64,000 bases of DNA from Gemmatimonadaceae bacterium (GTDB lineage Bacteria; Gemmatimonadota; Gemmatimonadetes; Gemmatimonadales; Gemmatimonadaceae), in contig JAUSJA010000033.1 in assembly GCA_030647905.1 (NCBI GenBank), forward strand, positions 62,001 through 126,000, read 5' to 3'. This document shows, in pieces, positions 41,778 to 57,497 of the stretch (the stretch's first letter is position 1; the number at the start of each line of letters is the position of its first letter). A model generated the notes under the pieces. The model saw nothing but the letters and a program-made list of their open reading frames with translations, searched no databases and was not told where the DNA came from. Made by a program: the position numbers and the translations under genes.

Positions 41778-42125
41778 CTATGAGAGCTTGATCGCGTTCC
41801 GCTTTGATGTCGTCCCGCACTGGGAGCAGATGCAGTACTCACGACTCACGATCACGAAGTCGGTCGAGCTGTCGCACGCAGGGCACTGCGCCTTCACGAT
41901 CGGCTGCATCTTTGTCTGCAGGCCGTTTCGTACAAGCCGCGCCGCCATCACAACCGGAGGCACCGCGCCCAACGGGCAGAGAGCACCGGAGCAATGCTCC
42001 CCGATCTCGAGACAAACAACCTCACGGTCATGAATCGGTGAAGGGTCGTCCTGCACCGGCTCATCGGTGAGCACGAGGCGCACTTCATGATCGCATGCCG
42101 AACAGTAGGCGTCGATGGTTTTCAT
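41778..42125 (-). CDS. Zinc-ribbon protein, last gene of the Rnf operon
   Basis: A 115-aa protein with two zinc-ribbon-like modules: CSACDHEV (residues 8-15) paired with a mid-protein CSGALC, and CPACDSS paired with CICSQC near the end. A strong ribosome site (GGAGGTCGT) precedes the ATG. No family recognised. Location after rnfA and apbE suggests a role in Fe-S or flavin assembly, or regulation of the operon. Confidence 0.65.
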   Translation of the reverse strand: MKTIDAYCSACDHEVRLVLTDEPVQDDPSPIHDREVVCLEIGEHCSGALCPLGAVPPVVMAARLVRNGLQTKMQPIVKAQCPACDSSTDFVIVSREYCICSQCGTTSKRNAIKLS

Positions 42126-42180
42126 TACGACCTCCGTGGTTCCTGCGCGGCGGCGTCACCGCAACGCATAGATGGGTGCA

Positions 42181-42300
42181 TTACCTATCCACTCCGACAG
42201 TTTGCAGCCGTCCGGCCGAGCGAAAGCGCATCAGCATCTTCACGAGCACGATTACCGCGACCAGCAATCCTCCGATAGGCCTTGCATGCGCTTTTCTCAT
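42181..42300 (-). CDS. 39-aa single-helix membrane peptide
   Basis: The ATG overlaps the apbE stop (ATGA). The product is a basic N-terminus, one membrane helix (PIGGLLVAVIVLVKMLM) and a basic tail (RFRSAGR). The coupling makes it likely to be translated. It could be a small subunit or assembly peptide of the Rnf complex; no homologue is recognised. Confidence 0.5.
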   Translation of the reverse strand: MRKAHARPIGGLLVAVIVLVKMLMRFRSAGRLQTVGVDR

Positions 42301-43289
42301 GCGATGCGTACTACCGTGGTTCCTGGGGCGCAGCGCGCGAAAAGCGCGTTCGCCTTTGCGGCGGTCAATCCATACGCCGCCGTTGCCGCGACGTCGGCAT
42401 GCATGCAACTGTCCGACCGAACCGTGAAGCTCCGCACTAGGGTCTCGCGCGGCGCGCCTGTCGAGGGATCGAGCAGATGATGATAGTCATGGCCCCGATA
42501 ACGGAAATGCTGGATGTACGTTCCGGAGGTGGCGATCGCTGCATCGGCGACTTCCACAATCCCGATCGTCGCGGCTTCGTCTGCCGGATCCTGAATTCCG
42601 ACGCGCCAGGGCGACCCGTCAACCGATGCGCCGATTGCGTATAGATCCCCGCCGACACTCACGAGCCCCCGGCGAATCCCGCGCTCACGCAGCACCGCCG
42701 CCGCGCGATCCACTGCGTACCCCTTGGCGATGGAGCCGAGATCTACTTTGACCTCCGGATCGTGATAGAGCATCACCGGCGAGCGGTTGTTCGTCCCGAG
42801 CTCCACTTTCCGATGAAGCGCTCTCGCACGATAGCGTGAGACGGCAGCCTCGGGCGGCGGCTCGTGCCGGTGCGTCACGTCCCACAACGCCACCGCACCT
42901 CCAATCGCCGGGTCGTATGCTCCACCCGTAAATTCGGCCCACCGAAGCGCTGCCTCGACGACGAGCGCTGTCTCCGCGCTGATTCGCACCGGCCGGTCAC
43001 TCGCGAAGTGATTGGCGCGGCCGATGTCGGAGCTGAACCTGAACCGCGTCATCATGCTTTCGATGCGGGTCAGCTCCGCCATGGCAGCATCCATCGCGGA
43101 GTGAGCGTACGGCGCGTCGCGATGCACCACAGCGAGATCGGCGATGGTTCCCATGACGGGCATCGTGCGGCGCACGAGGCGTTCGCGTCGCGACGCTGCA
43201 AGTGGGATCGATGCGACAACGAATGCGCCCGCACCGAGCGCCACGAATTCGCGGCGCGACATCTCGCGACGGGACTCCTTGCCTGACAT
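42297..43289 (-). CDS. apbE: FAD:protein FMN transferase ApbE
   Basis: A 330-aa flavin transferase that attaches FMN covalently to threonine in RnfD and RnfG. It starts with a twin-arginine-like signal (MSRREFVALGAGAF), so it acts in the periplasm. Family motifs are RRTMPVMGTIADL, GAYDPAIGG, KVDLGSIAKGYAVDRA, LVSVGGDLYAIG and HHLLDPSTGAP. The ATG at 43289 has a near-perfect ribosome site (AAAGGAGG) and overlaps the preceding stop by one base. Confidence 0.9.
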   Translation of the reverse strand: MSGKESRREMSRREFVALGAGAFVVASIPLAASRRERLVRRTMPVMGTIADLAVVHRDAPYAHSAMDAAMAELTRIESMMTRFRFSSDIGRANHFASDRPVRISAETALVVEAALRWAEFTGGAYDPAIGGAVALWDVTHRHEPPPEAAVSRYRARALHRKVELGTNNRSPVMLYHDPEVKVDLGSIAKGYAVDRAAAVLRERGIRRGLVSVGGDLYAIGASVDGSPWRVGIQDPADEAATIGIVEVADAAIATSGTYIQHFRYRGHDYHHLLDPSTGAPRETLVRSFTVRSDSCMHADVAATAAYGLTAAKANALFARCAPGTTVVRIA

Positions 43290-43435
43290 TACGACCTCCT
43301 TTCCTTCAGGGCGCAGTCGGATGCGCCGGTGCACGAGCCGCAGTTTCCGGAGCACTCACGCACCGGCCTGATAAGCGTGAAGCAGATGAAGAGCGCGGCC
43401 ACCGCCACCGCCGCGACAATCGTCGAGACCATCAT
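43289..43435 (-). CDS. 48-aa cysteine-rich single-helix membrane peptide
   Basis: Starts on the rnfA stop (TGA inside ATGATG) and ends one base into the apbE start. It has one membrane helix (TIVAAVAVAALFICFTLI) followed by a Cys-rich tail, REC..NCGSCTGASDC, with four cysteines, and a basic end. The tail resembles FeoB-associated Cys-rich peptides, or a small Fe-S or metal site. The gene order makes a role in Rnf assembly or electron transfer attractive but unproven. Confidence 0.65.
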   Translation of the reverse strand: MMVSTIVAAVAVAALFICFTLIRPVRECSGNCGSCTGASDCALKERRS

Positions 43436-44013
43436 GCGCCACTCAGCAGGCCGGCGAACCCCATGAACGCCAGTGAGAGGCTGCCCGCTATGATGAGAAC
43501 TATTGCCGTCCCTTTTGCCACCGCCGGGACGGTCGCGAACTGGAGCTTTTCGCGAATGGACGCCATCAGTGTCAGCGCCAGGATGAGACCGGCACCAGCG
43601 CCGAGTGCGAAGACCTGGCCCTCGATGAAAGTGTAGTTCCGGTTGGTCTGGAAAATCGCCAGCGCGAGTATGGCGCAGTTCGTCGTTATGAGAGGCAGGT
43701 AAATCCCAAGCTCACGAAAGAGCATCGGGCTCAGTTTCTTGATCGCCATCTCCACGATCTGCACCAGCGACGCGATCACGATGATGAAAGTGATGAGCCG
43801 CAGATACGGCGCCGAGCCGAGCACAAAATTATTGAGCAGCGACACGCTCGCCGCGGTCAGCACGAGGACGAAGAGGTTCGCGAATCCCAGGCGAAGCGCG
43901 GTCGGGATGTTGTTGGTCACGCCAAAGAACGAGCACAGCCCGAGGAACAGGACCAGCGTAAAGTTGTTCACCAGCATCGACGAGACAAAAATCCAGAGGA
44001 GATTGGCCATCAT
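43432..44013 (-). CDS. rnfA: Rnf complex membrane subunit RnfA
   Basis: A 193-aa protein with about six membrane helices. The paired cysteine segments (FLGLCSFFGV near residue 25 and LITTNCAILA near 110) match those that, with RnfE, hold a membrane [2Fe-2S] cluster passing electrons across the bilayer. Its start overlaps the rnfE stop by 4 bp. Confidence 0.93.
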   Translation of the reverse strand: MMANLLWIFVSSMLVNNFTLVLFLGLCSFFGVTNNIPTALRLGFANLFVLVLTAASVSLLNNFVLGSAPYLRLITFIIVIASLVQIVEMAIKKLSPMLFRELGIYLPLITTNCAILALAIFQTNRNYTFIEGQVFALGAGAGLILALTLMASIREKLQFATVPAVAKGTAIVLIIAGSLSLAFMGFAGLLSGA

Positions 44014-44747
44014 GCGACCTTCGCCGGTCCGGCAGGCGCCTCCAGTAGCTGAATCATCGCTTTCGCGGCTGTGACGGTTCGCCCTCGCGCGGGGCGATCA
44101 CGCATCTCACGCCGCCAGCCGAGCGCGAGAAGAATGAAGCCGAGCGTGAGAAAACCGCCCGGAGGCAGCAGCATGATCACCCAGGGCTCGAAGCGCGGAC
44201 CGAATACGCTGACGCCGAGGATCGTGCCCGCGCCGAGGATTTCGCGGATGGTGCCCATCATCAGCATGGCGACGGTGAACCCGGCTCCCATTCCGAGAGC
44301 GTCGAGAACCGATCTCCATACCGTGTTCCTGGCGGAGAACGCCTCCTGCCGTCCGAGGATGATGCAGTTCACCACGATGAGCGCGACGAATGCGCCGAGC
44401 GCCTTGTGCGTGTCTGGAACCAGCGCCTCGAGCGACATGTCGGCGATCGTCACGAACGTCGCGATGATGAGAACGTAAGACGAGATGCGCACCTCGTTCG
44501 GAATGAGCTTGCGCAGGCTCGACACGAAGAAACTCGAGAACACGAGGACGAGGAGCGTGGCGACCCCCATGGTCAGAGCGTTCATCACGCTGTTCGTGAC
44601 CGCGAGCATCGGACAGAGGCCGAGCAGCTGAACGAGAACCGGATTCTCTTTCCAGAGCCCCTTGAGGAGATCGTCACGCGCGGTTGGACCCTTGCTCGCC
44701 ATGGAAGGTGCCGGAGCGCTCGCCGCGCCAAGCATGTGATCGTGCAT
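44010..44747 (-). CDS. rnfE: Rnf complex membrane subunit RnfE
   Basis: A 245-aa paralogue of RnfA with six helices. Cysteine segments LLGLCPMLAVT and VVNCIILGR are the counterparts of those in RnfA. The start at 44747 overlaps the rnfG stop by one base and gives a short extra N-terminus. It pairs with RnfA to carry electrons between the cytoplasmic and periplasmic cofactors. Confidence 0.92.
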   Translation of the reverse strand: MHDHMLGAASAPAPSMASKGPTARDDLLKGLWKENPVLVQLLGLCPMLAVTNSVMNALTMGVATLLVLVFSSFFVSSLRKLIPNEVRISSYVLIIATFVTIADMSLEALVPDTHKALGAFVALIVVNCIILGRQEAFSARNTVWRSVLDALGMGAGFTVAMLMMGTIREILGAGTILGVSVFGPRFEPWVIMLLPPGGFLTLGFILLALGWRREMRDRPARGRTVTAAKAMIQLLEAPAGPAKVA

Positions 44748-45427
44748 CACTTCTGCCCTCGCTGATATTTCTCGAGCAACGGCTGCCACCGCTTTGCCGC
44801 GTTGTTGATCTCGCGTATCACCGTTCGGGACGAGATGGTAGCACCGGTGATCATCTCGATCGCGCTTTTGTCACCGGAGGGCACTTTGCCCTTCACCCCG
44901 ACGAGCGGCGCGATCCTGCTGGCGAACTGAGCGGTGAACGTGGGACGCTCGATCTTGTCGCCGAGGCCCGGTGTCTCCTTGCTCGAGAGGATCTTGAGCC
45001 CGAGCACCTGTTTCTGCGCTGGATCATAGCCGATGATCAGCCCAATCTGGTCAACGAACCCCGCTTCGGAAGTGCTGATGGCATACCCCAAGACGTGGCC
45101 GTCAGCCGCGTAGCCCTTGTAGATCCGATCGAGCTTCGACCGGTCCGTCGCGGCAGCCGGCTTGTCGGTGAGCGCGCCCTGATCGAGATAGATGGTGTCG
45201 GTGCGCTGAGGTGAATGCAGCACCTCCTCGATCGCAGCGCGTAGCAGCTTGGCGTTGTGCGCATCAATCCGCGGCCGCGTCCAGTCGTAGGCGAGCACTA
45301 TCAACAGGCCGGCGAGCGCTCCGGCGCCTCCCAGTGTCAGGAGAAGCCGCCACGACTGAGGATGCGGCTGAACTGGCACGTTCTCCGCGCCGCCCATCGG
45401 CATTCCCGACTCGCTCAATCCGGTCAT
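44747..45427 (-). CDS. rnfG: Rnf complex FMN-binding subunit RnfG
   Basis: A 226-aa protein with one N-terminal membrane helix and a periplasmic FMN-binding domain. The attachment site is the threonine of MITGATISSRTV near the C-terminus; ApbE would add the flavin. KETPGLGDKIE is also typical. The start overlaps the rnfD stop by 4 bp. Confidence 0.92.
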   Translation of the reverse strand: MTGLSESGMPMGGAENVPVQPHPQSWRLLLTLGGAGALAGLLIVLAYDWTRPRIDAHNAKLLRAAIEEVLHSPQRTDTIYLDQGALTDKPAAATDRSKLDRIYKGYAADGHVLGYAISTSEAGFVDQIGLIIGYDPAQKQVLGLKILSSKETPGLGDKIERPTFTAQFASRIAPLVGVKGKVPSGDKSAIEMITGATISSRTVIREINNAAKRWQPLLEKYQRGQK

Positions 45428-46437
45428 GCGGCCGCCTTCGCGCGACTCACGCCGAACGGAGTCGGCTGCGTCGCCCGGTTGATGAAGGGGACCATCGCGT
45501 TCATGAGCAGTATCGCGTACATCACTCCTTCCGGCAGTCCGCCCCAGACGCGAATGACCACGACGAGTATTCCGATGCCGAGTCCGAAGATCCACCGCCC
45601 CAGATTCGTCACCGGCGCGGTCACCATGTCAGTCGCCATGAAAACGGCGCCAAGGATGAGCCCGCCGGAAAACACCATGAAGAGAGACGTCGCGTAGCGC
45701 GCCGGGTCCAGCGCGTGGAGCGCCGCGGAGAATGCGGCTACCGTCGCCAGAATGGAGACCGGTATCCGCCAGTTCAGAAATCCGCGAATCGCCAGCCACG
45801 CGCCGCAAATCAGGATCAGGATTCCCGCAGTCTCGCCAAGCGAGCCGCTCGTCGTGCCGATCATGAGATCCCAAAGGGCCGTCGGCTTGTGCTCGAACTT
45901 CATGAGACCGAGTGGCGTCGCGGACGTGACGATATCGGCGACGCGAGGGCTCATGAGAGGAATCGCGAAGTTGTCTCCGCGGAGTGCCAGCCAGCTCCCG
46001 CCCGTCGCCGGCCACGTGGTGATCGCCACCGGAAACGCCGCCTGCAGGAACGCGCGCCCGAGAAGCGCCGGATTGAAGATGTTGTAGCCCAATCCGCCGA
46101 AGATGAGCTTCCCCAATCCAATGCCGAACGCGGCACCAAGCACGACCATCCACAGTGGCATTCCCGCGGGTAGCGTCAGACCGAGAAGTAGCCCGGTGAT
46201 CGCCGCCGATCCGTCGGCGATCGTTCCGCCCTTGCCGAACACACGCTCCGTGGCGACAGCGCCTCCCACCGACGCCGCGAGCACGAGAAGCGCGCTCGGT
46301 CCGAAAAACCACACCGCAGCGCCAACGATCGGAGCGAGGCTCGCCACGACGTTCCACATGATGTACGGCGTGCTGTCGCGCTTCCTGATGTGCGGCGACG
46401 CCGTCACCACGAGGGAGCGGCCGAGTCTCAGGCTCAT
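45424..46437 (-). CDS. rnfD: Rnf complex membrane subunit RnfD
   Basis: A 337-aa protein with nine to ten membrane helices. The covalent FMN site is in the VTSATPLGLMK segment (about residue 172). GGLGYNIFNPALLGRAFLQ and FMATDMVTAPVT are family motifs. RnfD is thought to form the ion pathway. The start was chosen at the ATGA overlap with rnfC; longer frames only read through rnfC. Confidence 0.93.
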   Translation of the reverse strand: MSLRLGRSLVVTASPHIRKRDSTPYIMWNVVASLAPIVGAAVWFFGPSALLVLAASVGGAVATERVFGKGGTIADGSAAITGLLLGLTLPAGMPLWMVVLGAAFGIGLGKLIFGGLGYNIFNPALLGRAFLQAAFPVAITTWPATGGSWLALRGDNFAIPLMSPRVADIVTSATPLGLMKFEHKPTALWDLMIGTTSGSLGETAGILILICGAWLAIRGFLNWRIPVSILATVAAFSAALHALDPARYATSLFMVFSGGLILGAVFMATDMVTAPVTNLGRWIFGLGIGILVVVIRVWGGLPEGVMYAILLMNAMVPFINRATQPTPFGVSRAKAAA

Positions 46438-47771
46438 GCGGCCCCCGCCTTCACTCTCTTGAGAGCGCTCTTGCTCGCCTGGAACAGCTGCGCGAGCGGA
46501 ATGTTCGACGGACACACATACGTGCACGATCCGCACAGCATGCAATCCGCGAGATGCTCCGCTTCCATTTCGCCGTATCGCCCCGTGCGGGCGAGGTCGC
46601 CGAGCAGCGACGGATTGAGCATCATCGGACACGCGTCGAGACAGCGTCCGCAGTGAATGCAGGGATAGGATCGCGCATCGGGAACCTGCGCGAAGGTGAG
46701 GACGATGACGCCGGTGGTTCCCTTGATGATCGGTGCATCGAGGTTTCCCTGCGCCACGCCCATCATCGGTCCGCCGAAAACGATCTCGGCCGCGTCGTCG
46801 GTGACGCCGCCACACATGTCGAGCAGATCGCCGACTTTTGTACCGACGGGAACGATCAGGTTGGCGGGATGCTTCACTCCCGGTCCGGAGACTGTGACGA
46901 TTCGCTCGAGCAGCGGAAGTCCGGTCTCGAAAACTTCGCCGATCGAAGCCGCCGACCCGACGTTCTGCACGAGCACGCCAAGACTCACAGGCAGCTTGCC
47001 CGATGGAACCTCGCGCCCCGTGACGGCGTGGATCAGCATCTTCTCCGCGCCCTGCGGGTACTTCACCGTGAGTGGCAGAACCGATACATCTATGTCCGTG
47101 GGCAGAGTCGCGCGAAGAGCTTCGATGGCGTCCGGCTTGTTTCGCTCGACACCGATCACCACTCTCTTTGCGCCGAGTGTGTGGAGCATGATGCGGGCGC
47201 CGAGCTGAACTCGCCCGGGATACTCGACCATGATACGATGATCGGTCGTGAGATATGGCTCGCACTCCGCGCCGTTGAGAATGATCGTCTCGACTGAAAC
47301 ATCGGGCGGCGGCGCAAGCTTCACGTGGGTTGGAAAGGCCGCGCCACCCAGTCCGACGACTCCCGCATTCTGAACGGCGGCGACGATCTCCTTTGGAGTG
47401 AGACCCTCCCAGTGTGGCACCATGCGCGGACGAGTTACCTGGGGCGAGTAACGGTCGACTTCGATTCTCACCGCGTCACTCATCGTGCCGTCGGGATGCG
47501 GCCATAGTCCGATGTCCACGACTGTTCCCGAGGCGGAGGCATGCACCGGCGCGGAGACGAAGCCGGATGCCGTAGCGATCGTGTCGCCTCTGATCACCCG
47601 GTCGCCTTTATTCACGGCGAGTTTCGCGGGCGCGCCAGCATGCTGTCTGAGTGGAAGCACGACCTCGTCCGGGTACGGCATGCGGCGGATCGGCAAGTGC
47701 GACGTGAGCTCCTTGAGCTCCGGCGGGTGCACGCCGTGATCGAAATGCGGGCCGCGGTAGAAGAGTCTCAT
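46434..47771 (-). CDS. rnfC: Rnf complex NADH-binding subunit RnfC
   Basis: A 445-aa cytoplasmic subunit. The N-terminus (YRGPHFDHGVHPPELKEL), the flavin/NADH domain (GVVGLGGAAFPTHVK, NGAECEPYLTTDHR) and two complete 4Fe-4S motifs (CIHCGRCLDACP and CMLCGSCTYVCP) are present. It passes electrons between NAD(H) and the complex. It lies 7 bp after the oxidoreductase gene. Confidence 0.93.
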   Translation of the reverse strand: MRLFYRGPHFDHGVHPPELKELTSHLPIRRMPYPDEVVLPLRQHAGAPAKLAVNKGDRVIRGDTIATASGFVSAPVHASASGTVVDIGLWPHPDGTMSDAVRIEVDRYSPQVTRPRMVPHWEGLTPKEIVAAVQNAGVVGLGGAAFPTHVKLAPPPDVSVETIILNGAECEPYLTTDHRIMVEYPGRVQLGARIMLHTLGAKRVVIGVERNKPDAIEALRATLPTDIDVSVLPLTVKYPQGAEKMLIHAVTGREVPSGKLPVSLGVLVQNVGSAASIGEVFETGLPLLERIVTVSGPGVKHPANLIVPVGTKVGDLLDMCGGVTDDAAEIVFGGPMMGVAQGNLDAPIIKGTTGVIVLTFAQVPDARSYPCIHCGRCLDACPMMLNPSLLGDLARTGRYGEMEAEHLADCMLCGSCTYVCPSNIPLAQLFQASKSALKRVKAGAA

Positions 47772-47778
47772 CTGCGGC

Positions 47779-50700: not shown

Positions 50701-52800
50701 CATCTCGTGGAAGCCGCGGTCCATCACGCGGATGTTGTCCTCGACGACGCTGGCGCCAAGCCGCGCAAACTTCTTCTCGAGCTGCCGGCGAATTCCCGCA
50801 AACAGCTTCGCCTCGTCGAGTCCCGCTTCCTTCACGAGCGGTGACACCGCGAAGAACGCACCCATGAATGCCGCGCCCTGCATGCGGTAGCGAAGCTCGG
50901 TGTCGGACGCTTCCCCGCTCGCGATTTTGAATCCGTCGAGCAGGTAGACCTTGACGCCCCTCTCGTGCATTTCCTGTCGCGCCCATACCGGCACGCGATC
51001 CCAGAACTGCTCCGGGGGCCGGTCAGTCTGGATGACGAACGCTCCGCCCTTGACGAGTCCCGCGAGCGGATTGGAGTGCAGGAACACGTTCGGATCGGGA
51101 GAGAGCACCACGTCCACGTTGCGCAGCTCGCAGTTGAGTCGAATCGGCTCAGGAGCGAACGTGGCATAGAACGTCGTGGGCTGGCCTTTCTTCTCCGAGC
51201 CGTATTTGGGGTTCGCCTTGATGTGAAGCCCGAACAGCTCGAACACCGTGGACGCGACGTTCTTGCCCATGGTGATCGCGCCCCATCCGCCGACGGAGTG
51301 AATGCGGAGCGATACCGAGCCGGCGGGAAGAAGGTTGACTTCTTCTGCGCTCTTGAGCGACAGCTCCTCGAGGTCCGGATACTCAGCCTCGAGCTTCTCC
51401 TGCCATATCTGGAGCTTCGGAAGCTTCGTTCCCGGTCGGATGAAATCGATGCCAAGGTAGAACTGTCGGCGATGCGCGCCGCCGGGCAGCATGTTCTCGA
51501 CCGCGGCAATGATGTCCGAAGGCTGCAGATCCCGGCTTCCCAGGCCAAAGCATCCGGAATAGAAATCCGGAACCTCGGCGGGCTCGAGCGCGGCGAGCTT
51601 ACGGAACGGCAGCTCCTCCGCCGTGCGAACGCGTCCGTTCTCCATCGCCTGCGCCATCGCGGCGCGCAGCTCGCGCAGAAGCGGCGCATCCACCGCGAGC
51701 GGCTGATCCGTCCTCTCGAGTACCACCACGCCTTTCTTTCCGCGCAGCATTCGCGAGACGAGGTCGGCAGGAAACGGCCGGAACATGGCGAGGTTCATCA
51801 CGCCGACGCGCAGTCCGCGCACGTCCCTTAGATGATCACACACCGCTTCGGCGTTGCTCACAACGGATCCCTGCCCGACGATCGCGTACTCCGCGTCATC
51901 GAGACGATACCCTTCGGCGCGTGTATAGCTGCGCCCGGTGAGATGGGCAAACTCGGCGAATGCCTGATCCGACAGATCGGCGATGTGATCGAAGTAGAAC
52001 GGCCGCTGCGCTGCGACGCCCTGCGCGTAGCTCTCCTGATTCTGCACCACACCGAGCATCGCCGGATAATCCAGGTCGAACATCTCAGGAATCCGGCGTC
52101 GCTTTGCTCCGAAGACGAGTCGCTGCGCGGCAGTCGGCGCGTCAATCATGTCGGCTGGATCGCCGAGGAACTCACGAACGAGGTCCCGCTCGGGAAGATA
52201 CAGCGACTCGATGACGTGACTCGTGAGGAAGCCATCCTGCGCGCAGATCCCGGGATTCAGCGAGAGCTCGGCGACGCGGTGCGCGATGAGATTGAAATCG
52301 GCGCTCTGCTGGACATCCTTCGCAAAGAGCTGGAAGAAGCCAGTATCGTCGATCGCGTGATAATCATCGTGACCAGCGTGAACGTTGAGCGAGTGCTTCG
52401 TCATCGCACGGCATGCGACGTTGAGCACGTAGGTGAGCCGCTTGCCGACCGCCGCGTAAAGCGACTCGTGCATGTACGCGATGCCCTGGCCGCTTGAGAA
52501 GTTCGTCGCGCGGAGACCCACCATGCTCATGCCCGCCGTGACAGCGGCCGCTGCGTGTTCGCCTTCGGGCTCGAAGAAGAGAAGACGCCGACCGTTGACG
52601 TTCCGCTTTCCATCCGCGACCGCCGCGGCCCATCCCTCACCCATCTGCGTGGACGGCGTTATCGGATACGCGCCTGCTGCTTCGCTGCCCGCGGTTTCCA
52701 TCGCCACGATCGCGGCGCTTCCGTCCATCGCCGCCCTGATTCCAGGGAAGCGGGGACGCTCGGGTGATGCAACCGCGGTTCTGCCCGGCCAGAGCTTCAT
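47779..52800 (-). CDS. nifJ: Giant pyruvate:ferredoxin (flavodoxin) oxidoreductase with extra C-terminal ferredoxin domain
   Basis: A 1673-aa single-chain 2-oxoacid oxidoreductase; the usual length is about 1170-1200. Domains in order: pyrimidine-binding half (AYPITPST near residue 45), gamma-type domain (SVGGWGAITMGKNVA near 510), two complete 4Fe-4S motifs (CTGCSQCWVQCP, CKGCNLCVAVCP), and a ThDP domain (CMGCGEKTAVH, GDGAMLDIGFQN, VYSNTGGQ). Then come a predicted coiled coil (SQVQAEYEQRLEQLRADYEG), an Ala/Val/Pro linker and a one-cluster ferredoxin-like end (CTTCNEC ... RCPVGI). It oxidises pyruvate (probably) to acetyl-CoA and reduces ferredoxin. The start at 52800 overlaps the rnfB stop. 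Confidence 0.88.
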   Translation of the reverse strand: MKLWPGRTAVASPERPRFPGIRAAMDGSAAIVAMETAGSEAAGAYPITPSTQMGEGWAAAVADGKRNVNGRRLLFFEPEGEHAAAAVTAGMSMVGLRATNFSSGQGIAYMHESLYAAVGKRLTYVLNVACRAMTKHSLNVHAGHDDYHAIDDTGFFQLFAKDVQQSADFNLIAHRVAELSLNPGICAQDGFLTSHVIESLYLPERDLVREFLGDPADMIDAPTAAQRLVFGAKRRRIPEMFDLDYPAMLGVVQNQESYAQGVAAQRPFYFDHIADLSDQAFAEFAHLTGRSYTRAEGYRLDDAEYAIVGQGSVVSNAEAVCDHLRDVRGLRVGVMNLAMFRPFPADLVSRMLRGKKGVVVLERTDQPLAVDAPLLRELRAAMAQAMENGRVRTAEELPFRKLAALEPAEVPDFYSGCFGLGSRDLQPSDIIAAVENMLPGGAHRRQFYLGIDFIRPGTKLPKLQIWQEKLEAEYPDLEELSLKSAEEVNLLPAGSVSLRIHSVGGWGAITMGKNVASTVFELFGLHIKANPKYGSEKKGQPTTFYATFAPEPIRLNCELRNVDVVLSPDPNVFLHSNPLAGLVKGGAFVIQTDRPPEQFWDRVPVWARQEMHERGVKVYLLDGFKIASGEASDTELRYRMQGAAFMGAFFAVSPLVKEAGLDEAKLFAGIRRQLEKKFARLGASVVEDNIRVMDRGFHEMRALDYSSLPMQGGVEAAIPEMPSLLDVPAARDGFGNPGRFWEQVCFPTRAGQDGIADPFAALSAIPAATGAVRDMTDVRMEVPLFHPDKCTGCSQCWVQCPDSAIPGLVTEIDQLIDVAMGVAANGKSLDRMRQVSKHLVKETRRLLTTNGMGKFTDVFSAAFDNVVPKLGWDDARRAELAGEFSRVKDVLADFPVAKTAPFFDNPESKQPGTGALLSITVNPEACKGCNLCVAVCPDGALESVRQDAAIVETLRNNWKIWEKLPDTPERFAHVTNIDEGVGILSSLLLSKDAYRSMVGGDGACMGCGEKTAVHLIISAIHSLMLPRVAAYLARLDDMISQLDTKARAILASDADLERASSTSASEIAVPLAPAKRAELERITQTIHALRDLRWRYTEGPGGKGRAQLGMANSTGCSSVWGSTYPYNPYPFPWVNHLFQDSPSIAIGLFEGQMRKMSDQFVEVRRAELLLADNYDVARDEDELAKLDWKSFSDEEFGMCPPIVAMGGDGAMLDIGFQNLSRLLASGKPIRVIVLDTQVYSNTGGQACTSGYTGQVSDMAAYGEAQHGKTEVRKEMALMAIAHRGVFVHQSSQASASHLISGVLRGLNKRRPAIFNIYTPCPVEHGLADDWSTRAARLALESRAFPFLTYDPDAGPLVSDALTLDGNPALDELWPMYALEYVDGEGGNQRMDLPLTIADWAATEGRFKRHFHAVPADKWNDDMIPFHSFLELSLSDREGKTPFIYTLAADKRLNRLEVSREIVMLAEERLQFWGQLRELAGLEPSATVRDRLVSQVQAEYEQRLEQLRADYEGKMAELRATYPVAIARRMAEALLKGPKAASGMEDLLSRVTVAPVAERPVPVAAAKPVEAVAVAASTATATAVPPEAEVGLSMDPYIESERCTTCNECTNLNGKMFVYNAEKQAIIRDPRAGTFQQLVVAAERCPVGIIHPGTPLNPKEKDLEKWIKRAAPFS

Positions 52801-53651
52801 GCTATCTCTCTCTGAAGGAGTGACTCCTTCGGTTGGGACGTCGTAAGCTGTGGTCCGTCGAGCCAGACGATTGCCCCGGTGGGACAACGTCGCGTTGCCG
52901 ACTCGTCACCGGAGAGCGGGCTCGACGAATCCACTACCGCCACACCCGACGCAATACTGATCAATCCCGGTGGCGCATCGAGCACGCACTTGCCGCACGC
53001 AGTGCACGCAACCGAGCACTCGGCGAGTATTTCATCGCCGGCCATCAGGCTGCGGCACTGAACGAGCAGATGCTGCGGAAGCGGGAGAATCGTGAAGAGA
53101 TTCTTCGGGCATGCATCAACACAGTCTCCGCATGCGGTGCACTTTACGGGATCCACGACCGGCAGCCCGTTCTCGTTCATATGGAGAGCGTCGAACTCGC
53201 ACGAGACGGCGCAGTCACCGAGGCCAAGGCAGCCCCACGTGCAGCCCTTTCCGCCGCCGGACACCGTGGATGCCGCGGCGCAGGTCTGCAGTCCGCGATA
53301 TTCGGCACGCTGCACCGTCACGTTTGTGCCGCCGGCGCACAAGAGCCGCGCGACACGCCTGTCGGCTTCACCAGCCGACACGCCGAGATAATCGGCAATT
53401 GCAGTGATGCCCTCATCGTTGAGAACATTGCACTTGGCCGGCTGTATCTCGCCCGCGACAGCCTGCTCGGCGAATGCCCGGCAGCCGGGAAGACCACAGG
53501 CTCCGCAGTTCACGCCGGGCAGCATCGCCGCAAGCACATCTATTCGCGGATCCTCCCACACGTGCAGCTTCGAGTGCGCGAGCGCGATCATGATCGCGAA
53601 CACCAGCCCGACTCCGCCGAGGATCAGAACCGCGAGCAGCGTATCAGGCAT
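52797..53651 (-). CDS. rnfB: Rnf complex ferredoxin-accepting subunit RnfB (one cluster lost)
   Basis: A 284-aa subunit. It has one N-terminal membrane helix, the NCGACGLPGC...C cluster (about residues 49-73), and a ferredoxin region (CTWGCLGLGDCAVSC with CTACGDCVDACP). The last ferredoxin module keeps CTACGKC but has Ala-Pro where the fourth cysteine should be, and its second half keeps only RCPTGAI. That is exactly the set needed for one cluster instead of two. It accepts electrons from ferredoxin. rnfB is separated from rnfC by the oxidoreductase gene, an unusual order. Confidence 0.9.
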   Translation of the reverse strand: MPDTLLAVLILGGVGLVFAIMIALAHSKLHVWEDPRIDVLAAMLPGVNCGACGLPGCRAFAEQAVAGEIQPAKCNVLNDEGITAIADYLGVSAGEADRRVARLLCAGGTNVTVQRAEYRGLQTCAAASTVSGGGKGCTWGCLGLGDCAVSCEFDALHMNENGLPVVDPVKCTACGDCVDACPKNLFTILPLPQHLLVQCRSLMAGDEILAECSVACTACGKCVLDAPPGLISIASGVAVVDSSSPLSGDESATRRCPTGAIVWLDGPQLTTSQPKESLLQREIA

Positions 53652-53657
53652 GAGCCC

Positions 53658-54656
53658 TCAGGCGACGCCAGCGCGACTGGATTGATCGAGCAGCCAGGCG
53701 GTGAGCCGTTCAGCAGGATCCGCGTTGCCGCCCCCTATCGCCGCAATCAGTGCGTCAGCCGAATTCGCCGGCAGAACGGGTTGCTCGACGAGTGCTTTCA
53801 GGTGAGCCAGATCGTCGCGCTGCTGCCACGCGCTCCGAGTGCCAAGTGACTTTCGCGGCTGCGTGTCGGGCATATGAGTGACTTCGATGCGCTGCCATAT
53901 CGCCGACCCGGCGCGCGGGTCGTGAACGAATCGCGCCTCGGTCCCTTTCATGACGGCGATGACCGCCGGTCCATCGAGGTCAGCCACTTTTTCGACGACT
54001 TTCATGTCCCCGGCTTGAGCGACGAAGACACCGGGTGAGACGAGGCGCGCAAGAGGCGCGGGCGGACACGGCTCGTCTACGAGCAGAACGAGGCGCACGC
54101 AGCCGTCAAGGAGCGGAGCGAGCTCGAACGCGTCGAGGTCACGACCGTCGACGCGCACCACAACAGGCGGGGCGAGCTTGCGCTCGCCGGCCGTCCATTT
54201 CTCGAAGGGATGTTCCTTGAAGGGCAAACCGTGCTGCACAGGATCGTAGGTACGCCGTCGTACCAGCTCGACCAGAGTCGCGGCTCCGAACGCGGAGCCA
54301 AGAGTCGTCATGCGCGCACGAATCGCGGCGGCGGGGGATGTCCCAGGGTGCACGTCCACGACGAACTCCTCGTCGCCCGCCCGAAGGAGAGATTCGAGTG
54401 CCTCGGCGGCGCGCTCGACGACCGCGCGGCCGATCACGTCGAGCGGGGCCGAGCCCGCGGAAACCATCGCGAAGCGGTCGGGATCTATGCGTCCGCCGGC
54501 GAAGTCACCCAGTGCGACGCGCGTCTGACTCGGGCCGGACTCGGAAGCTAGCGTGGCTCTGGCTCGCTCGAGAGTGCCGGAGACGGCGAAACGAAAGAGC
54601 GCGATTTGCGGACGAACGGCGGAAAGCGCCGCCACGACGCGTTCGTCAGACTGCAT
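53658..54656 (-). CDS. Unknown protein between korB and rnfB
   Basis: A 332-aa soluble protein with no cysteine clusters, no membrane helix and no family that I recognise. It has repeated alternating strands (VVDVHPGTSPAAAIRARM, VVVRVDGRDLDAFELAPLLDG, PAVIAVMKGTEARFVHDP) and an Ala-rich helical end. Its ATG lies 11 bases inside the korB 3' end, and rnfB follows after 6 bp, so it is co-expressed with ferredoxin enzymes. A chaperone, docking or regulatory role is possible; function unknown. Confidence 0.7.
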   Translation of the reverse strand: MQSDERVVAALSAVRPQIALFRFAVSGTLERARATLASESGPSQTRVALGDFAGGRIDPDRFAMVSAGSAPLDVIGRAVVERAAEALESLLRAGDEEFVVDVHPGTSPAAAIRARMTTLGSAFGAATLVELVRRRTYDPVQHGLPFKEHPFEKWTAGERKLAPPVVVRVDGRDLDAFELAPLLDGCVRLVLLVDEPCPPAPLARLVSPGVFVAQAGDMKVVEKVADLDGPAVIAVMKGTEARFVHDPRAGSAIWQRIEVTHMPDTQPRKSLGTRSAWQQRDDLAHLKALVEQPVLPANSADALIAAIGGGNADPAERLTAWLLDQSSRAGVA

Positions 54657-55596
54657 AGTGGTCGAGCTCCGCGTTCAGGAGTGCGATTCGCTCGCTGCTC
54701 GTCACCTTGGGCGGCTTCCGCAGCAGATCGTAGCGCGCCCGGGCTTCGTTCCTGTAGAAGAGGCCGAGCCGGATGTGACCGCCGTCTTCGGCGAGCCGTC
54801 TCGCGGCATCGAGATCCGAGGGATCGTGAGCAACGCGATTCTTGTAGATCTTGTCGAGCTCGGGAGCGACGACGCCGTCGTCGTGAACCAGGAGCTCGAT
54901 CATCCCAGGATTTCTCACCGCTTCGTCGTACATCCCCTGCGTGAACAACGGACAGCGCTGAAGAATGCGCACGAAAGCGAAGCCCTGGTGCCGATATGCC
55001 GCGCGCAGTGTGGCGTAGAGATGCGCGGGAACCCACTCAGCCGTCTGCGCGACGAAAGATACGTTCGTGGTTCCCAGCGTCGTTGTCAGCGGATTCAGGG
55101 CCGGGAGGAAACTCCCGAACGGTTGAGTGTTGGTCTTGAATCCCTGCGGCGTGGTGGGCGACGTCTGCTTCTTCGTGAGGCCGTAGATGCTGTTGTCCAG
55201 CAGCATCACTACCATGCGGATGTTGTAGCGAATGGCGTGAATCCAGTGCCCGGCGCCGATGGAGCAGCAGTCGCCGTCTCCCATCACGACGAAGACCTCG
55301 AGATCGGGACGATGCAGCTTCACTCCGGTGGCGACGGGCAGCGCGCGTCCGTGCAGTCCGTGAAAGCCGTATGTCTTAAGATAGTGAGGGAATCGGCTCG
55401 AGCATCCGATTCCCGACACGAACACCGTTTGCTCCGGCTTGAGCTGCTCTGCGACGAGAAGTTTCTCGACAGCGGTGAGTACCGAATGGTCTCCGCACCC
55501 GGGGCACCAGCGGGCCGTGACTCCTTCGTAATCGTCGAGCTCGAACTCGCGATCGTCGTCGTCGAGGACCGGCAGGATGGCGCAGTGTGAAGTCAT
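54646..55596 (-). CDS. korB: 2-oxoacid:ferredoxin oxidoreductase beta subunit
   Basis: A 316-aa ThDP-binding subunit of the 2-oxoglutarate:ferredoxin oxidoreductase type. Motifs are ARWCPGCGDHSVL (residues 28-40, a Cys for the 4Fe-4S cluster), GIGCSSRFPHY, VMGDGDCCSIG and DNSIYGLTKKQTSPTT. With KorA it decarboxylates a 2-oxoacid and reduces ferredoxin; in Thauera the analogous enzyme feeds benzoyl-CoA reductase. 2-oxoglutarate specificity is by family resemblance. It overlaps korA by 4 bp. Confidence 0.88.
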   Translation of the reverse strand: MTSHCAILPVLDDDDREFELDDYEGVTARWCPGCGDHSVLTAVEKLLVAEQLKPEQTVFVSGIGCSSRFPHYLKTYGFHGLHGRALPVATGVKLHRPDLEVFVVMGDGDCCSIGAGHWIHAIRYNIRMVVMLLDNSIYGLTKKQTSPTTPQGFKTNTQPFGSFLPALNPLTTTLGTTNVSFVAQTAEWVPAHLYATLRAAYRHQGFAFVRILQRCPLFTQGMYDEAVRNPGMIELLVHDDGVVAPELDKIYKNRVAHDPSDLDAARRLAEDGGHIRLGLFYRNEARARYDLLRKPPKVTSSERIALLNAELDHYAV

Positions 55597-57497
55597 GGCT
55601 GGTCTCCGCCCGGCGTGAGCGCCGCGTCGCGTATCGCCTTGTGAATGAGTCCCGGGCGTAACGGCTCGCCTGGCACGCGTGTCCAGCAGTCCACGTCGCA
55701 GAGCGTCTGCGCGCGGAGAAGCATGGCGAGCTGCCCTCGCCGCCTGTTCTCTTCGGTGATGAATGGATCACCGCGCTGGTCGCTGTAGTTGATCTCGACC
55801 GTCATCACCTTCCGGAATCGCGAGAAGATCTCCTTGAGTCCCGGCTGCAGCGGCGACAGGAAAGTCAGATGCACCGATGATGCGCGAATCCCCTCTGCGC
55901 GTGCCCGGTCGACGGCTTCCTCGATAGCGCCCTTGGTGCTGCCCCAGCCGACGACGAGAAGGTCGCCGTCCTGGTCGCCATAGAGGGCGGGCCGGAGCAG
56001 CGTTTGTTGAAGGACCGCGAGCTTGCGGCTTCGCATCGCTGTCGAGTGCTGATGAACGCCTGCGTCGTACGCGACTTTACTCCCCTCGTCGTGCGAGAGC
56101 CCGGTCACGGTGAACATTCCGCCAGGCTGCCCTGGTATCGCGCGCGTTGAGGTGCCCATCCGCGCGTCCCACTCGTAGGGACGTTGCCCTTCCTTTACCG
56201 GCGCGAGGTCCAGCTCGGGAGCGAGCCACTCCTTCTTCAGCTGCGGACGGGGGAAGGGTTGAACTCCCGTCGACAGATTCGCGTCCGAGAGAATGATCAC
56301 CACCGCGCGGAAGGTTTCAGCGATCTGGCGCGCGGTGATCACGGAGTGGAAGCATTCCTCGATCGTCGCCGGGGCGATCACCACACGCGGCGCGTCGCCT
56401 GGCTCGGCGAACAACGCGGCGAGGAGATCCGACTGCTCCACCTTCGTCGGCAGACCGGTGCTCGGCCCGCCGCGCTGCACGTTCATGACGACGAGCGGAG
56501 TCTCGGTCATGACAGCCAATCCGATGAACTCCGTCTTCAGCGCGAAACCGGGGCCGGAAGTGATCGTGAACGCGACCTTTCCGGCGTATGATGCGCCGAT
56601 CGCGACACCGACGGCGGCGATCTCATCCTCTGCCTGATGCAGGATTCCGCCGAACTTCGTGAAGACTTCAGCCAGATAGTGGGAGACCGAAGTCGCCGGC
56701 GTGATGGGATACATCGCGCAAAGCTCCATTCCCGACGCAAGCGCACCCATGCCGAGCGCCTCGTTGCCGTTCATCACGACGAGGGCTTCGGTCGGCGGAT
56801 GAGTTGGAACGTCAATCCTGAAATCGAGATTCGCGGCGGCCCATTCGACGCCCAGCCGCATGAGCGCCACGTTTCTCTGGAAGACCTCTTCGGATTTCTT
56901 GCGGAACGCGTAGGCGATCTGGTCTTCGATCCGCTCGAGGCTGCGGTCGTAGATGTACGCCAGCAGTCCCAGGGCGAACATGTTCTTTCCTTTCCGCGGA
57001 TTCTCGTCGATGGTGAGGCACTGCTCTTCCATCGGGACTTCAATTATCCGGTACGACTGCGCGGAGAGCTCGGCGAGCGCCTTGTCCCAGGCGGCCCTGA
57101 TGTCGGGATTCGAGTTAGTGGCCCAGGAGTTCTCGAGCAGAACAATGGCGTCGCCCGCCATCGTGCCGAGCAGATGGCGGCCGAGGAGGACCTGTTCGTT
57201 GAAGGCGATGACGAGGTTGGTTTCGTCGCCCCAGTTGGTGACGGGGCCCGTGCCGAATCGGATGCGGTTGCCGCTTGCCCCTTCAGCGGTCCGGGGCGGG
57301 GGCTGGATCTCGGCGGGGATTATCTCCACCGTCCACACCCCATTGCCCATCTTGGCGGAAACGGCGCCGAAGATCTGGCCGCATTTCTGCGCACCTTCTC
57401 CGGAGTCGGAGACTATTTCTACAGTATGCTCCGGCCGTTTGAGGACGGTCGGAGCGGGACGAAGCCCAGATTCAACAGGCACGGCGACGGCGGTCAT
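55593..57497 (-). CDS. korA: 2-oxoacid:ferredoxin oxidoreductase alpha-gamma fused subunit
   Basis: A 634-aa protein with the gamma domain first (about residues 25-200) and the alpha domain after (GNEALGMGALASGMELCAMYPITPATSVSHYL near 245-275, then FTITSGPGFALKTEFIG). This is the usual KorA architecture. It is the first gene of the super-operon; a GAGAGGAGG ribosome site lies upstream of the ATG. It faces vapBC across a 307-bp gap. Confidence 0.88.
   Translation of the reverse strand: MTAVAVPVESGLRPAPTVLKRPEHTVEIVSDSGEGAQKCGQIFGAVSAKMGNGVWTVEIIPAEIQPPPRTAEGASGNRIRFGTGPVTNWGDETNLVIAFNEQVLLGRHLLGTMAGDAIVLLENSWATNSNPDIRAAWDKALAELSAQSYRIIEVPMEEQCLTIDENPRKGKNMFALGLLAYIYDRSLERIEDQIAYAFRKKSEEVFQRNVALMRLGVEWAAANLDFRIDVPTHPPTEALVVMNGNEALGMGALASGMELCAMYPITPATSVSHYLAEVFTKFGGILHQAEDEIAAVGVAIGASYAGKVAFTITSGPGFALKTEFIGLAVMTETPLVVMNVQRGGPSTGLPTKVEQSDLLAALFAEPGDAPRVVIAPATIEECFHSVITARQIAETFRAVVIILSDANLSTGVQPFPRPQLKKEWLAPELDLAPVKEGQRPYEWDARMGTSTRAIPGQPGGMFTVTGLSHDEGSKVAYDAGVHQHSTAMRSRKLAVLQQTLLRPALYGDQDGDLLVVGWGSTKGAIEEAVDRARAEGIRASSVHLTFLSPLQPGLKEIFSRFRKVMTVEINYSDQRGDPFITEENRRRGQLAMLLRAQTLCDVDCWTRVPGEPLRPGLIHKAIRDAALTPGGDQP

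Follow-up and report, generated by a model that had tools for sequence, protein, structure and literature searches.

The locus analysed here raises the question of why the gene of a pyruvate oxidoreductase should lie within a set of genes encoding an ion pump. The Rnf complex is usually described as fed by a diffusible pool of ferredoxin, while in aerobes the oxidative dehydrogenation of 2-oxoacids is usually described as yielding NADH with no pumping of ions; in strict aerobes a PFOR is not expected. In the window, a 64 000-nucleotide stretch of Gemmatimonadaceae DNA, a giant PFOR-type 2-oxoacid oxidoreductase (POR) with a C-terminal tethered ferredoxin is encoded between rnfB and rnfC. If the reading developed below is true, POR, the ferredoxin that it carries and Rnf would form a conserved unit and a third alternative, in which the PDH and OGDH steps are coupled to an ion gradient, strict aerobes included.

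Organization of the locus

The ten genes from korA to rnfA all lie on the minus strand, joined by overlaps of 1–11 bases or gaps of 6–7 bases; the initial annotation had described the joins so, and proved right almost to the base. Thus korA (55593..57497) overlaps korB (54646..55596) by 4 bases, korB overlaps orf332 (53658..54656) by 11, a gap of 6 bases separates orf332 from rnfB (52797..53651), and rnfB overlaps the POR gene (47779..52800) by 4. A gap of 7 bases leads to rnfC (46434..47771), followed by overlaps of 4 bases with rnfD (45424..46437), 4 between rnfD and rnfG (44747..45427), 1 between rnfG and rnfE (44010..44747) and 4 between rnfE and rnfA (43432..44013). On the same strand apbE (42297..43289 from an ATG, or starting at a GTG at 43355) follows rnfA after ∼76–142 bases, depending on the start, and a further gap of 171 bases precedes zf115 (41778..42125). 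The tight joins are not a matter of chance, since two of them recur elsewhere: the 11-base korB/orf332 overlap is present at 58 of 62 loci in several phyla, and the rnfB/POR overlap at 70 of 79. Promoter-like and terminator-like sites were found by consensus scan at the locus only at the levels of a shuffled background. The POR start is placed at the ATG at 52800 by comparison with homologues; a longer open reading frame starting with TTG was rejected, as the homologues do not support it.

The Rnf subunits and their order

Rnf subunits A, B, C, D, E and G are all encoded at the locus, and together are predicted to form a ferredoxin:NAD+ ion pump. RnfB (PF04060), the subunit accepting electrons from ferredoxin, has Rnf subunit B as its best match in the PDB (9eri_B, E = 6.6e-61), and RnfC, the FMN/NADH subunit (TIGR01945, 519.5 bits against a cut-off of 245.95), matches Rnf subunit C (9eri_C, E = 4e-114). 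RnfD (TIGR01946, 297.8 bits, cut-off 207) and RnfE (TIGR01948, 238 bits, cut-off 213) are similarly assigned. RnfB, RnfA (PF02508; TIGR01943, 205 bits, cut-off 229) and RnfG (FMN_bind, PF04205; TIGR01947, 99.5 bits, cut-off 102) fall just below their NCBIfam subfamily cut-offs, yet still match Pfam and/or solved Rnf subunits. RnfG carries a TGAT flavinylation motif, and ApbE is an FAD:protein FMN transferase (PF02424, E = 1.4e-72). The set therefore resembles the Rnf complexes of A. woodii, C. tetanomorphum and A. vinelandii in its six subunits, in RnfB and RnfC being closest to 9eri and 7zc6, and in the accompanying ApbE, but differs in the POR gene that sits between rnfB and rnfC.

The interruption of rnfB and rnfC by the oxidoreductase (1673 amino acids), noted in the initial annotation, is borne out by the gene coordinates. 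The gene order had also been thought unfamiliar, and here a distinction is needed. An order unknown to the field it is not, as rnfBCDGEA has been published for Bacteroidetes/Chlorobi and Caldithrix (PMC3534657, PMC5317091), and the rnf genes of our locus follow it exactly. What is unusual is the insertion: the published Caldithrix cluster has no POR between B and C, its genes being consecutive (Cabys_3129-3134). The accessible text of a 2025 review of Rnf and Nqr holds no mention of POR-Rnf gene linkage, and we found no description of such a module in the open-access literature searched, including that on Rnf in Marivirga and in Gemmatimonadota.

The giant POR and its tethered ferredoxin

POR contains the Pfam domains POR_N, PFOR_II, POR, Fer4, TPP_enzyme_C and Fer4_13, all above cut-off, and aligns with the PFOR of M. 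thermoacetica (6cin) with E = 1.3e-82. In an alignment of ∼100 homologues Cys790/793/796/800, Cys926/929/932/936, Cys1004/1007/1116/1320, Asp1208 and Thr1236 are invariant, so that all 12 internal cysteine ligands and the TPP residues are kept. The domains, the TPP and Mg residues and the internal [4Fe-4S] ligands place the protein in the PFOR/2-oxoacid:ferredoxin oxidoreductase superfamily. Thr48 and Arg131, which are kept nearly always, align with the substrate-binding threonine and arginine of D. africanus PFOR, as in a pyruvate-type OFOR, and the substrate would be pyruvate or a similar 2-oxoacid. POR shares with the PFOR/NifJ enzymes of D. africanus and M. thermoacetica the domain order, the TPP residues, three internal [4Fe-4S] clusters and the substrate Thr/Arg, and the PFOR thiamine domain is matched with Z = 27.9. 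It differs in its length (∼1670 compared with ∼1200 residues), its long insertions, its C-terminal linker and ferredoxin, and its location inside rnf. Since it scores only 377 bits against the NifJ equivalog TIGR02176, for which the cut-off is 911, we regard it as a divergent PFOR subfamily and not as NifJ in the NCBIfam definition.

The body of POR is connected by an Ala/Pro-rich linker of ∼50 residues (48028..48183, minus strand) to a terminal ferredoxin domain (47779..48027, minus strand). The linker varies in sequence among homologues and is predicted to be disordered, with pLDDT of ∼30–35 across model residues 570–611, while the ferredoxin domain is modelled with pLDDT of ∼82–92. The domain (Fer4_13) has the four ligands of a single [4Fe-4S] cluster in a CxxCxxC...C arrangement (Cys1602, 1605, 1608 and 1644) and is similar to D. 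africanus ferredoxin I (1dax/1fxr, E = 0.0015), which is a redox partner of D. africanus PFOR. In POR, in contrast, the ferredoxin is covalently tethered to the enzyme. There is a parallel in the pyruvate:NADP+ oxidoreductase of Euglena and Cryptosporidium, where PFOR is likewise fused to the next electron carrier; in those enzymes it is a flavoprotein reductase producing NADPH, whereas in POR it is a ferredoxin domain encoded beside an ion pump.

The four tail cysteines are found in all complete, unshifted Rnf-linked PORs of both clades described below, and the tail is missing from related PORs in five genomes without Rnf, a correlation that samples two Rnf-less lineages, one of which is a distant outgroup. 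There is one exception, a Chloroflexota MAG (L127) in which the tail is present and Rnf was not detected. At another locus (L144) the tail seems to be missing only on account of a break in the reading frame close to the 3′ end, and the locus was rejected as an example. The tethered ferredoxin suggests a concrete structural basis for bypassing free ferredoxin.

KorAB and orf332

korA encodes, as one fused chain, the gamma-alpha subunit of a KorAB-type 2-oxoacid:ferredoxin oxidoreductase with two subunits (TIGR03710, 525.7 bits, cut-off 482.75), and its nearest solved structure is 6n2n, listed as the Magnetococcus 2-oxoglutarate:ferredoxin oxidoreductase. korB encodes the thiamine diphosphate-containing beta subunit (PF02775, TPP_enzyme_C, and PF12367, PFO_beta_C, above cut-off; TIGR02177, 236.6 bits, below the cut-off of 261.9). 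The fused gamma-alpha plus beta architecture is that of known KorAB 2-oxoglutarate:ferredoxin oxidoreductases; unlike those, this one is Rnf-linked and followed by orf332 with its fixed overlap. No tethered ferredoxin is found in KorAB by Pfam.

orf332 has no match in Pfam or NCBIfam. Its AlphaFold model (pLDDT 87.7) gives only weak thiamine-enzyme matches in plain Foldseek (best E = 0.03), and its best PDB match by VIA-align is to residues ∼804–1170 of PFOR (Z = 8.9). Profile alignment by hhalign with POR 1184–1402 gives E = 5.5e-5, compared with 0.12 or worse for reversed-alignment controls. No cysteine is conserved in its alignment (the best column has 19 of 78 rows) and the GDG motif that binds TPP and Mg is not kept, so that it lacks the features of a thiamine diphosphate enzyme and is a paralogue by descent rather than an active enzyme. 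orf332 is thus probably a degenerate, non-catalytic copy of the thiamine diphosphate domain of POR, a pseudo-beta subunit, and its most likely role would be to dock KorAB with POR.

How widespread is the POR-Rnf unit?

The initial annotation had proposed surveying this gene order across phyla. rnfC comes after POR in 99 of the 106 non-redundant loci that could be evaluated, in at least eight phyla, strict aerobes such as Marivirga included, and the linkage is therefore not local. In a sample of 298 genomes of the phylum, both giant POR and Rnf occur in 59, POR alone in two (one a fragmented assembly), Rnf alone in six and neither in 231. The six with Rnf only belong to one divergent family and carry canonical PFORs on other contigs. 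Trees of POR, RnfB, RnfC and RnfD have 13–19 of 33–35 splits in common, where ∼0.2 would be expected by chance, including a deep split into two clades. apbE follows rnfA in most clade I loci.

In the window's genome the segment from rnfB to apbE (42297..53651, minus strand) has only 48–73% identity to a genome of the same genus (L041), compared with 82–93% for korA, korB, orf332 and zf115, with breakpoints at ∼53.6 and ∼42.2 kb. Judged from these identities rnfB-POR-rnfCDGEA-apbE has been exchanged as a single block of which korAB is not part; base composition does not mark the block. In several clade II loci, too, korAB is missing or placed elsewhere, and no orf332 was detected at the loci of this clade. 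Of the single coupled unit that had been suggested for korAB, POR and Rnf, the phylogenetic linkage of POR with Rnf is strong, while KorAB is the weaker part.

The window's genome encodes just two POR_N enzymes, both in this operon. The same number is found in each of four cultured Bacteroidota genomes, in all cases at the Rnf locus, and on a single contig in one Acidobacteriota MAG. PDH- and OGDH-type E1 and E2 homologues are also encoded in the window's genome, and therefore POR and KorAB are not the sole route; that they substitute for missing PDH and OGDH was rejected for this genome.

A substrate-fed ion pump?

The presence of POR inside the Rnf genes of at least eight phyla suggests a dedicated machine by which pyruvate oxidation might generate an ion gradient directly. 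We consider it probable, from gene content, order and retained residues, that the locus encodes a pyruvate-fed Rnf module in which the tethered ferredoxin supplies RnfB. POR would produce acyl-CoA by oxidatively decarboxylating pyruvate or a 2-oxoacid like it, with electrons passing from the thiamine diphosphate site through the three internal [4Fe-4S] clusters to the fourth on the flexibly tethered ferredoxin, and thence to RnfB. Rnf would reduce NAD+ at RnfC with export of Na+ or H+, RnfD and RnfG having been flavinylated by ApbE. KorAB would add electrons to the common pool from another 2-oxoacid, with 2-oxoglutarate the likeliest candidate, and orf332, its start locked to the end of korB, most likely docks KorAB with POR. 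The net result would be the dehydrogenation of 2-oxoacids with its energy conserved in an ion gradient. What the sequence shows is the gene content, the conserved order, the residues, the tail and the co-inheritance; the substrate, the passage of electrons to RnfB, the direct channelling proposed in the initial annotation and its direction, a physical complex and the part played by orf332 are inferred. A more far-reaching version we hold only tentatively: that Rnf has in POR a genuine accessory subunit with a swinging electron arm to RnfB, that orf332 docks KorAB and POR at the membrane, and that together they form an ion-pumping pyruvate/2-oxoglutarate dehydrogenase of aerobes and anaerobes in many phyla, bypassing free ferredoxin.

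The same components could run in reverse. In the reductive TCA cycle the two carboxylases that depend on ferredoxin are POR and KOR, and both are present at the locus; with NADH and the ion gradient, Rnf would reduce the tethered ferredoxin for reductive carboxylation by POR (as pyruvate synthase) and KorAB (as 2-oxoglutarate synthase), in CO2 assimilation or anaplerosis. The oxidative direction is moreover already covered by the PDH and OGDH homologues, and a reverse-running Rnf is known from Azotobacter (PMC12174285). Yet cultured carriers, Marivirga among them, are aerobes of a largely heterotrophic marine group (PMC11225308), and ATP-citrate lyase had no match in the window's genome, in a search without a working positive control; we think the reverse mode unlikely. 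Somewhat less unlikely, though still doubtful, is that the genes are only co-regulated, POR and KorAB reducing ordinary free ferredoxin that feeds Rnf, with the tail as one more cluster, for example an electron buffer. The genome contains small ORFs resembling free ferredoxins, a tethered ferredoxin is lacking in KorAB, and the Chloroflexota MAG has the tail without Rnf. Against this, the tail is present in all intact Rnf-linked PORs of two clades and neither of the Rnf-less clades sampled has it, the exchanged unit is POR with Rnf and ApbE rather than POR with KorAB, and in the six genomes of the same sample that have Rnf and a canonical PFOR the two lie on separate contigs.

Finally, the order could be kept by joint horizontal transfer of a mobile cassette, and not because POR and Rnf are functionally coupled. 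The cluster is patchily distributed in the window's genus, a block has been replaced in its genome, and copies lie on megaplasmids in Gemmatirosa kalamazoonensis and Persicobacter psychrovividus. This we regard as improbable: the genes stay adjacent and closely spaced in at least eight phyla and at ∼50% protein divergence, even as korAB changes place, and all the catalytic residues are retained.

The small CxxC/CxxC protein encoded by zf115 has no Pfam or NCBIfam match, and its position is conserved among Gemmatimonadota. POR-Rnf is present in cultured strains of Marivirga, Algoriphagus and Fulvivirga and in Gemmatirosa kalamazoonensis, and channelling from enzyme to pump becomes directly testable, the tail being a natural, separable arm.

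Organization of the locus

The genome containing the window (bases 62001–126000 of contig C33) comprises 3.1 Mb and is 98.6% complete. Gene calls on the minus strand, made from open reading frames, alignments and family searches, show that neighbouring genes from korA to rnfA overlap at seven joins, by 1, 4 or 11 bases, and are separated at the other two, by 6 and 7 bases, exactly as the initial annotation described. The same annotation considered the rnf order unfamiliar. The giant 2-oxoacid oxidoreductase (POR; 47779–52800, minus strand) does part rnfB from rnfC, but the remaining order is the rnfBCDGEA published for Bacteroidetes/Chlorobi and Caldithrix (PMC3534657, PMC5317091), identical except for the inserted POR. 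After rnfA come apbE and then zf115 (41778–42125, minus strand), which encodes a small protein with two CxxC pairs; a family search with it gave no match. Its place 3′ of apbE is conserved at many Rnf loci of Gemmatimonadota.

The giant POR comprises POR_N, PFOR_II and POR-gamma domains, two internal Fer4 sites, a thiamine-diphosphate domain and a C-terminal Fer4_13 domain, as found by family search. PFORs of solved structure align with it (6cin, E = 1.3e-82), the substrate-site Thr and Arg positions included, but it misses the NifJ equivalog cut-off by far (377 vs 911 bits). The AlphaFold model of residues 980–1673 contains the PFOR thiamine domain (Z = 27.9 to 6cin), a long helical extension, a linker of about 50 disordered residues (pLDDT about 30–35) and a ferredoxin domain predicted with good confidence (pLDDT about 82–92). 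The best PDB relative of this tail by sequence is ferredoxin I of D. africanus (1dax/1dfd/1fxr, E = 0.0015). Apart from gaps in one row, an alignment of 101 PORs from the two clades defined below shows the ligands of the internal clusters without variation and keeps those of the tail.

Linkage of POR and Rnf across bacteria

How widespread is this arrangement? Searches of 298 genomes of the phylum, the best 80 matches from GTDB contigs and 241 genomes of Marivirga's order together yielded at least 120 non-redundant POR loci. Of the loci listed, 106 are evaluable, with the whole of POR and 250 bases or more beyond it; in 99 of them, from at least eight phyla and falling into clades I and II, rnfC comes directly after POR, at a median distance of about 5 bases. 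Clade I has korA-korB-orf332-rnfB-POR-rnfCDGEA-apbE, in Gemmatimonadota and in MAGs labelled Planctomycetota, Gammaproteobacteria, Rokubacteria, Geobacter, Myxococcota and Chloroflexota. Clade II has POR-rnfCDGEA; rnfB lies immediately upstream of it or, in Bacteroidota, downstream with korAB. The other members of this clade are Calditrichota, Hydrogenedentota, Acidobacteriota and Halieaceae. In the sample of Marivirga's order each of the 19 giant PORs carries the tail and is followed by rnfC. Phylum labels of MAGs can stem from mis-binning; among the Bacteroidota carriers are named cultured strains, including the strictly aerobic M. arenosa (PMC11225308).

Trees of POR, RnfB, RnfC and RnfD share 13–19 splits, against about 0.2 by chance, and all four recover the division into clades I and II. 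The module of Halieaceae-related Gammaproteobacterial genomes (L131/L134 and L163/L171) occurs in both clades, which implies that it was acquired independently at least twice.

Of the 298 genomes, 59 have POR together with Rnf and 231 have neither; POR occurs without Rnf in 2 and Rnf without POR in 6. A partial rnfC at the end of one contig was counted as present, and because genomes share ancestry the Fisher p (1e-52) serves for description only. The six Rnf-only genomes belong to one divergent family, with canonical PFORs on other contigs. As to exceptions to adjacency, rnfC lies on another contig in L064, and in L127 (a Chloroflexota MAG) the tail is present and a search for Rnf found none. 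The POR of L080 (64% identical) is nested in clade I, and those of L075–L078 are about 36% identical; all are without Rnf and tail, and a search for RnfD found it absent from all five genomes. The L075–L078 proteins, from a few Gemmatimonadaceae, form a separate subfamily. In L080, where Rnf has gone, zf115 still adjoins POR.

Probable exchange of the rnfB-apbE block

Within the window's genus, the three genomes G061, G010 and G291 are about 82–97% identical to one another for every locus gene except orf332 (74–80%). The window's genes match theirs at 90–93% for korA and korB, 72–82% for orf332 and 83–89% for zf115, and at only about 48–73% for rnfB-POR-rnfCDGEA-apbE, except in the N-terminal third of POR, its most conserved part (78%). 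Across this block G061, the nearest sampled relative of the window's genome within the genus (korA 92% identical), resembles a genome from a different family (POR 75%, RnfC 86%) more than it does the window. Sliding DNA identity falls where orf332 meets rnfB (about 53.6 kb) and rises again where apbE meets zf115 (about 42.2 kb). The simplest reading of these sequence comparisons is that the block was exchanged as one piece in the window's genome, in which case the co-inherited unit would be POR, Rnf and ApbE, with KorAB and orf332 outside. Gemmatirosa kalamazoonensis and Persicobacter psychrovividus have copies of the module on large plasmids, in agreement with such mobility.

A putative docking subunit

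A family search with orf332 gave no match. Its structure model is confident (pLDDT 87.7); among solved structures it matches PFOR thiamine domains best (Z up to 8.9), followed by the beta subunits of oxalate oxidoreductase and M. acetivorans PFOR. Profile–profile comparison with the POR thiamine domain gives E = 5.5e-5, against 0.12 or worse for controls (other operon proteins and reversed alignments). Taken together with the modest Z values, this makes descent from the POR thiamine domain likely. No conserved Cys is found in the orf332 alignment, and the thiamine motif is not kept. In 58 of 62 loci the korB/orf332 overlap measures exactly 11 bases, and in L127 orf332 remains with korB and POR though rnfB is missing; from this we infer that it may serve KorAB and POR as a docking subunit.

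Direction of electron flow

The initial annotation proposed channelling of electrons from 2-oxoacids through ferredoxin to Rnf, and we consider an oxidative flow of this kind probable. POR would oxidise its substrate and pass electrons to the tethered ferredoxin and thence to RnfB, while Rnf would export ions, with NADH formed at RnfC. The same architecture would also serve in reverse, an ion gradient driving carboxylation; this main functional rival seems to us unlikely. Co-regulation alone, the rival on mechanism, is doubtful, if slightly less so; these readings partly overlap and are not mutually exclusive. E1/E2 proteins of the PDH and OGDH types are encoded in the genome too, so that the POR-Rnf module would provide an alternative, energy-conserving route.

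The individual parts of the module are all of known kinds. As far as a limited search of the open-access literature shows, the stable union of POR and Rnf with a tethered ferredoxin and a pseudo-enzyme partner is not described, and an earlier description is possible.

In clade II a 285-residue ferredoxin-NADP reductase/BoxA-like flavoprotein follows rnfA (L154:19416–20273, L163:19425–20285), hinting at a further NADP(H) branch. A second rnf set adjoins the POR-containing one at L106:21460–25148 and L169:418–4848; in the second set of L106 no giant POR separates rnfB from rnfC, and genome G283 has two rnfC genes on one contig.
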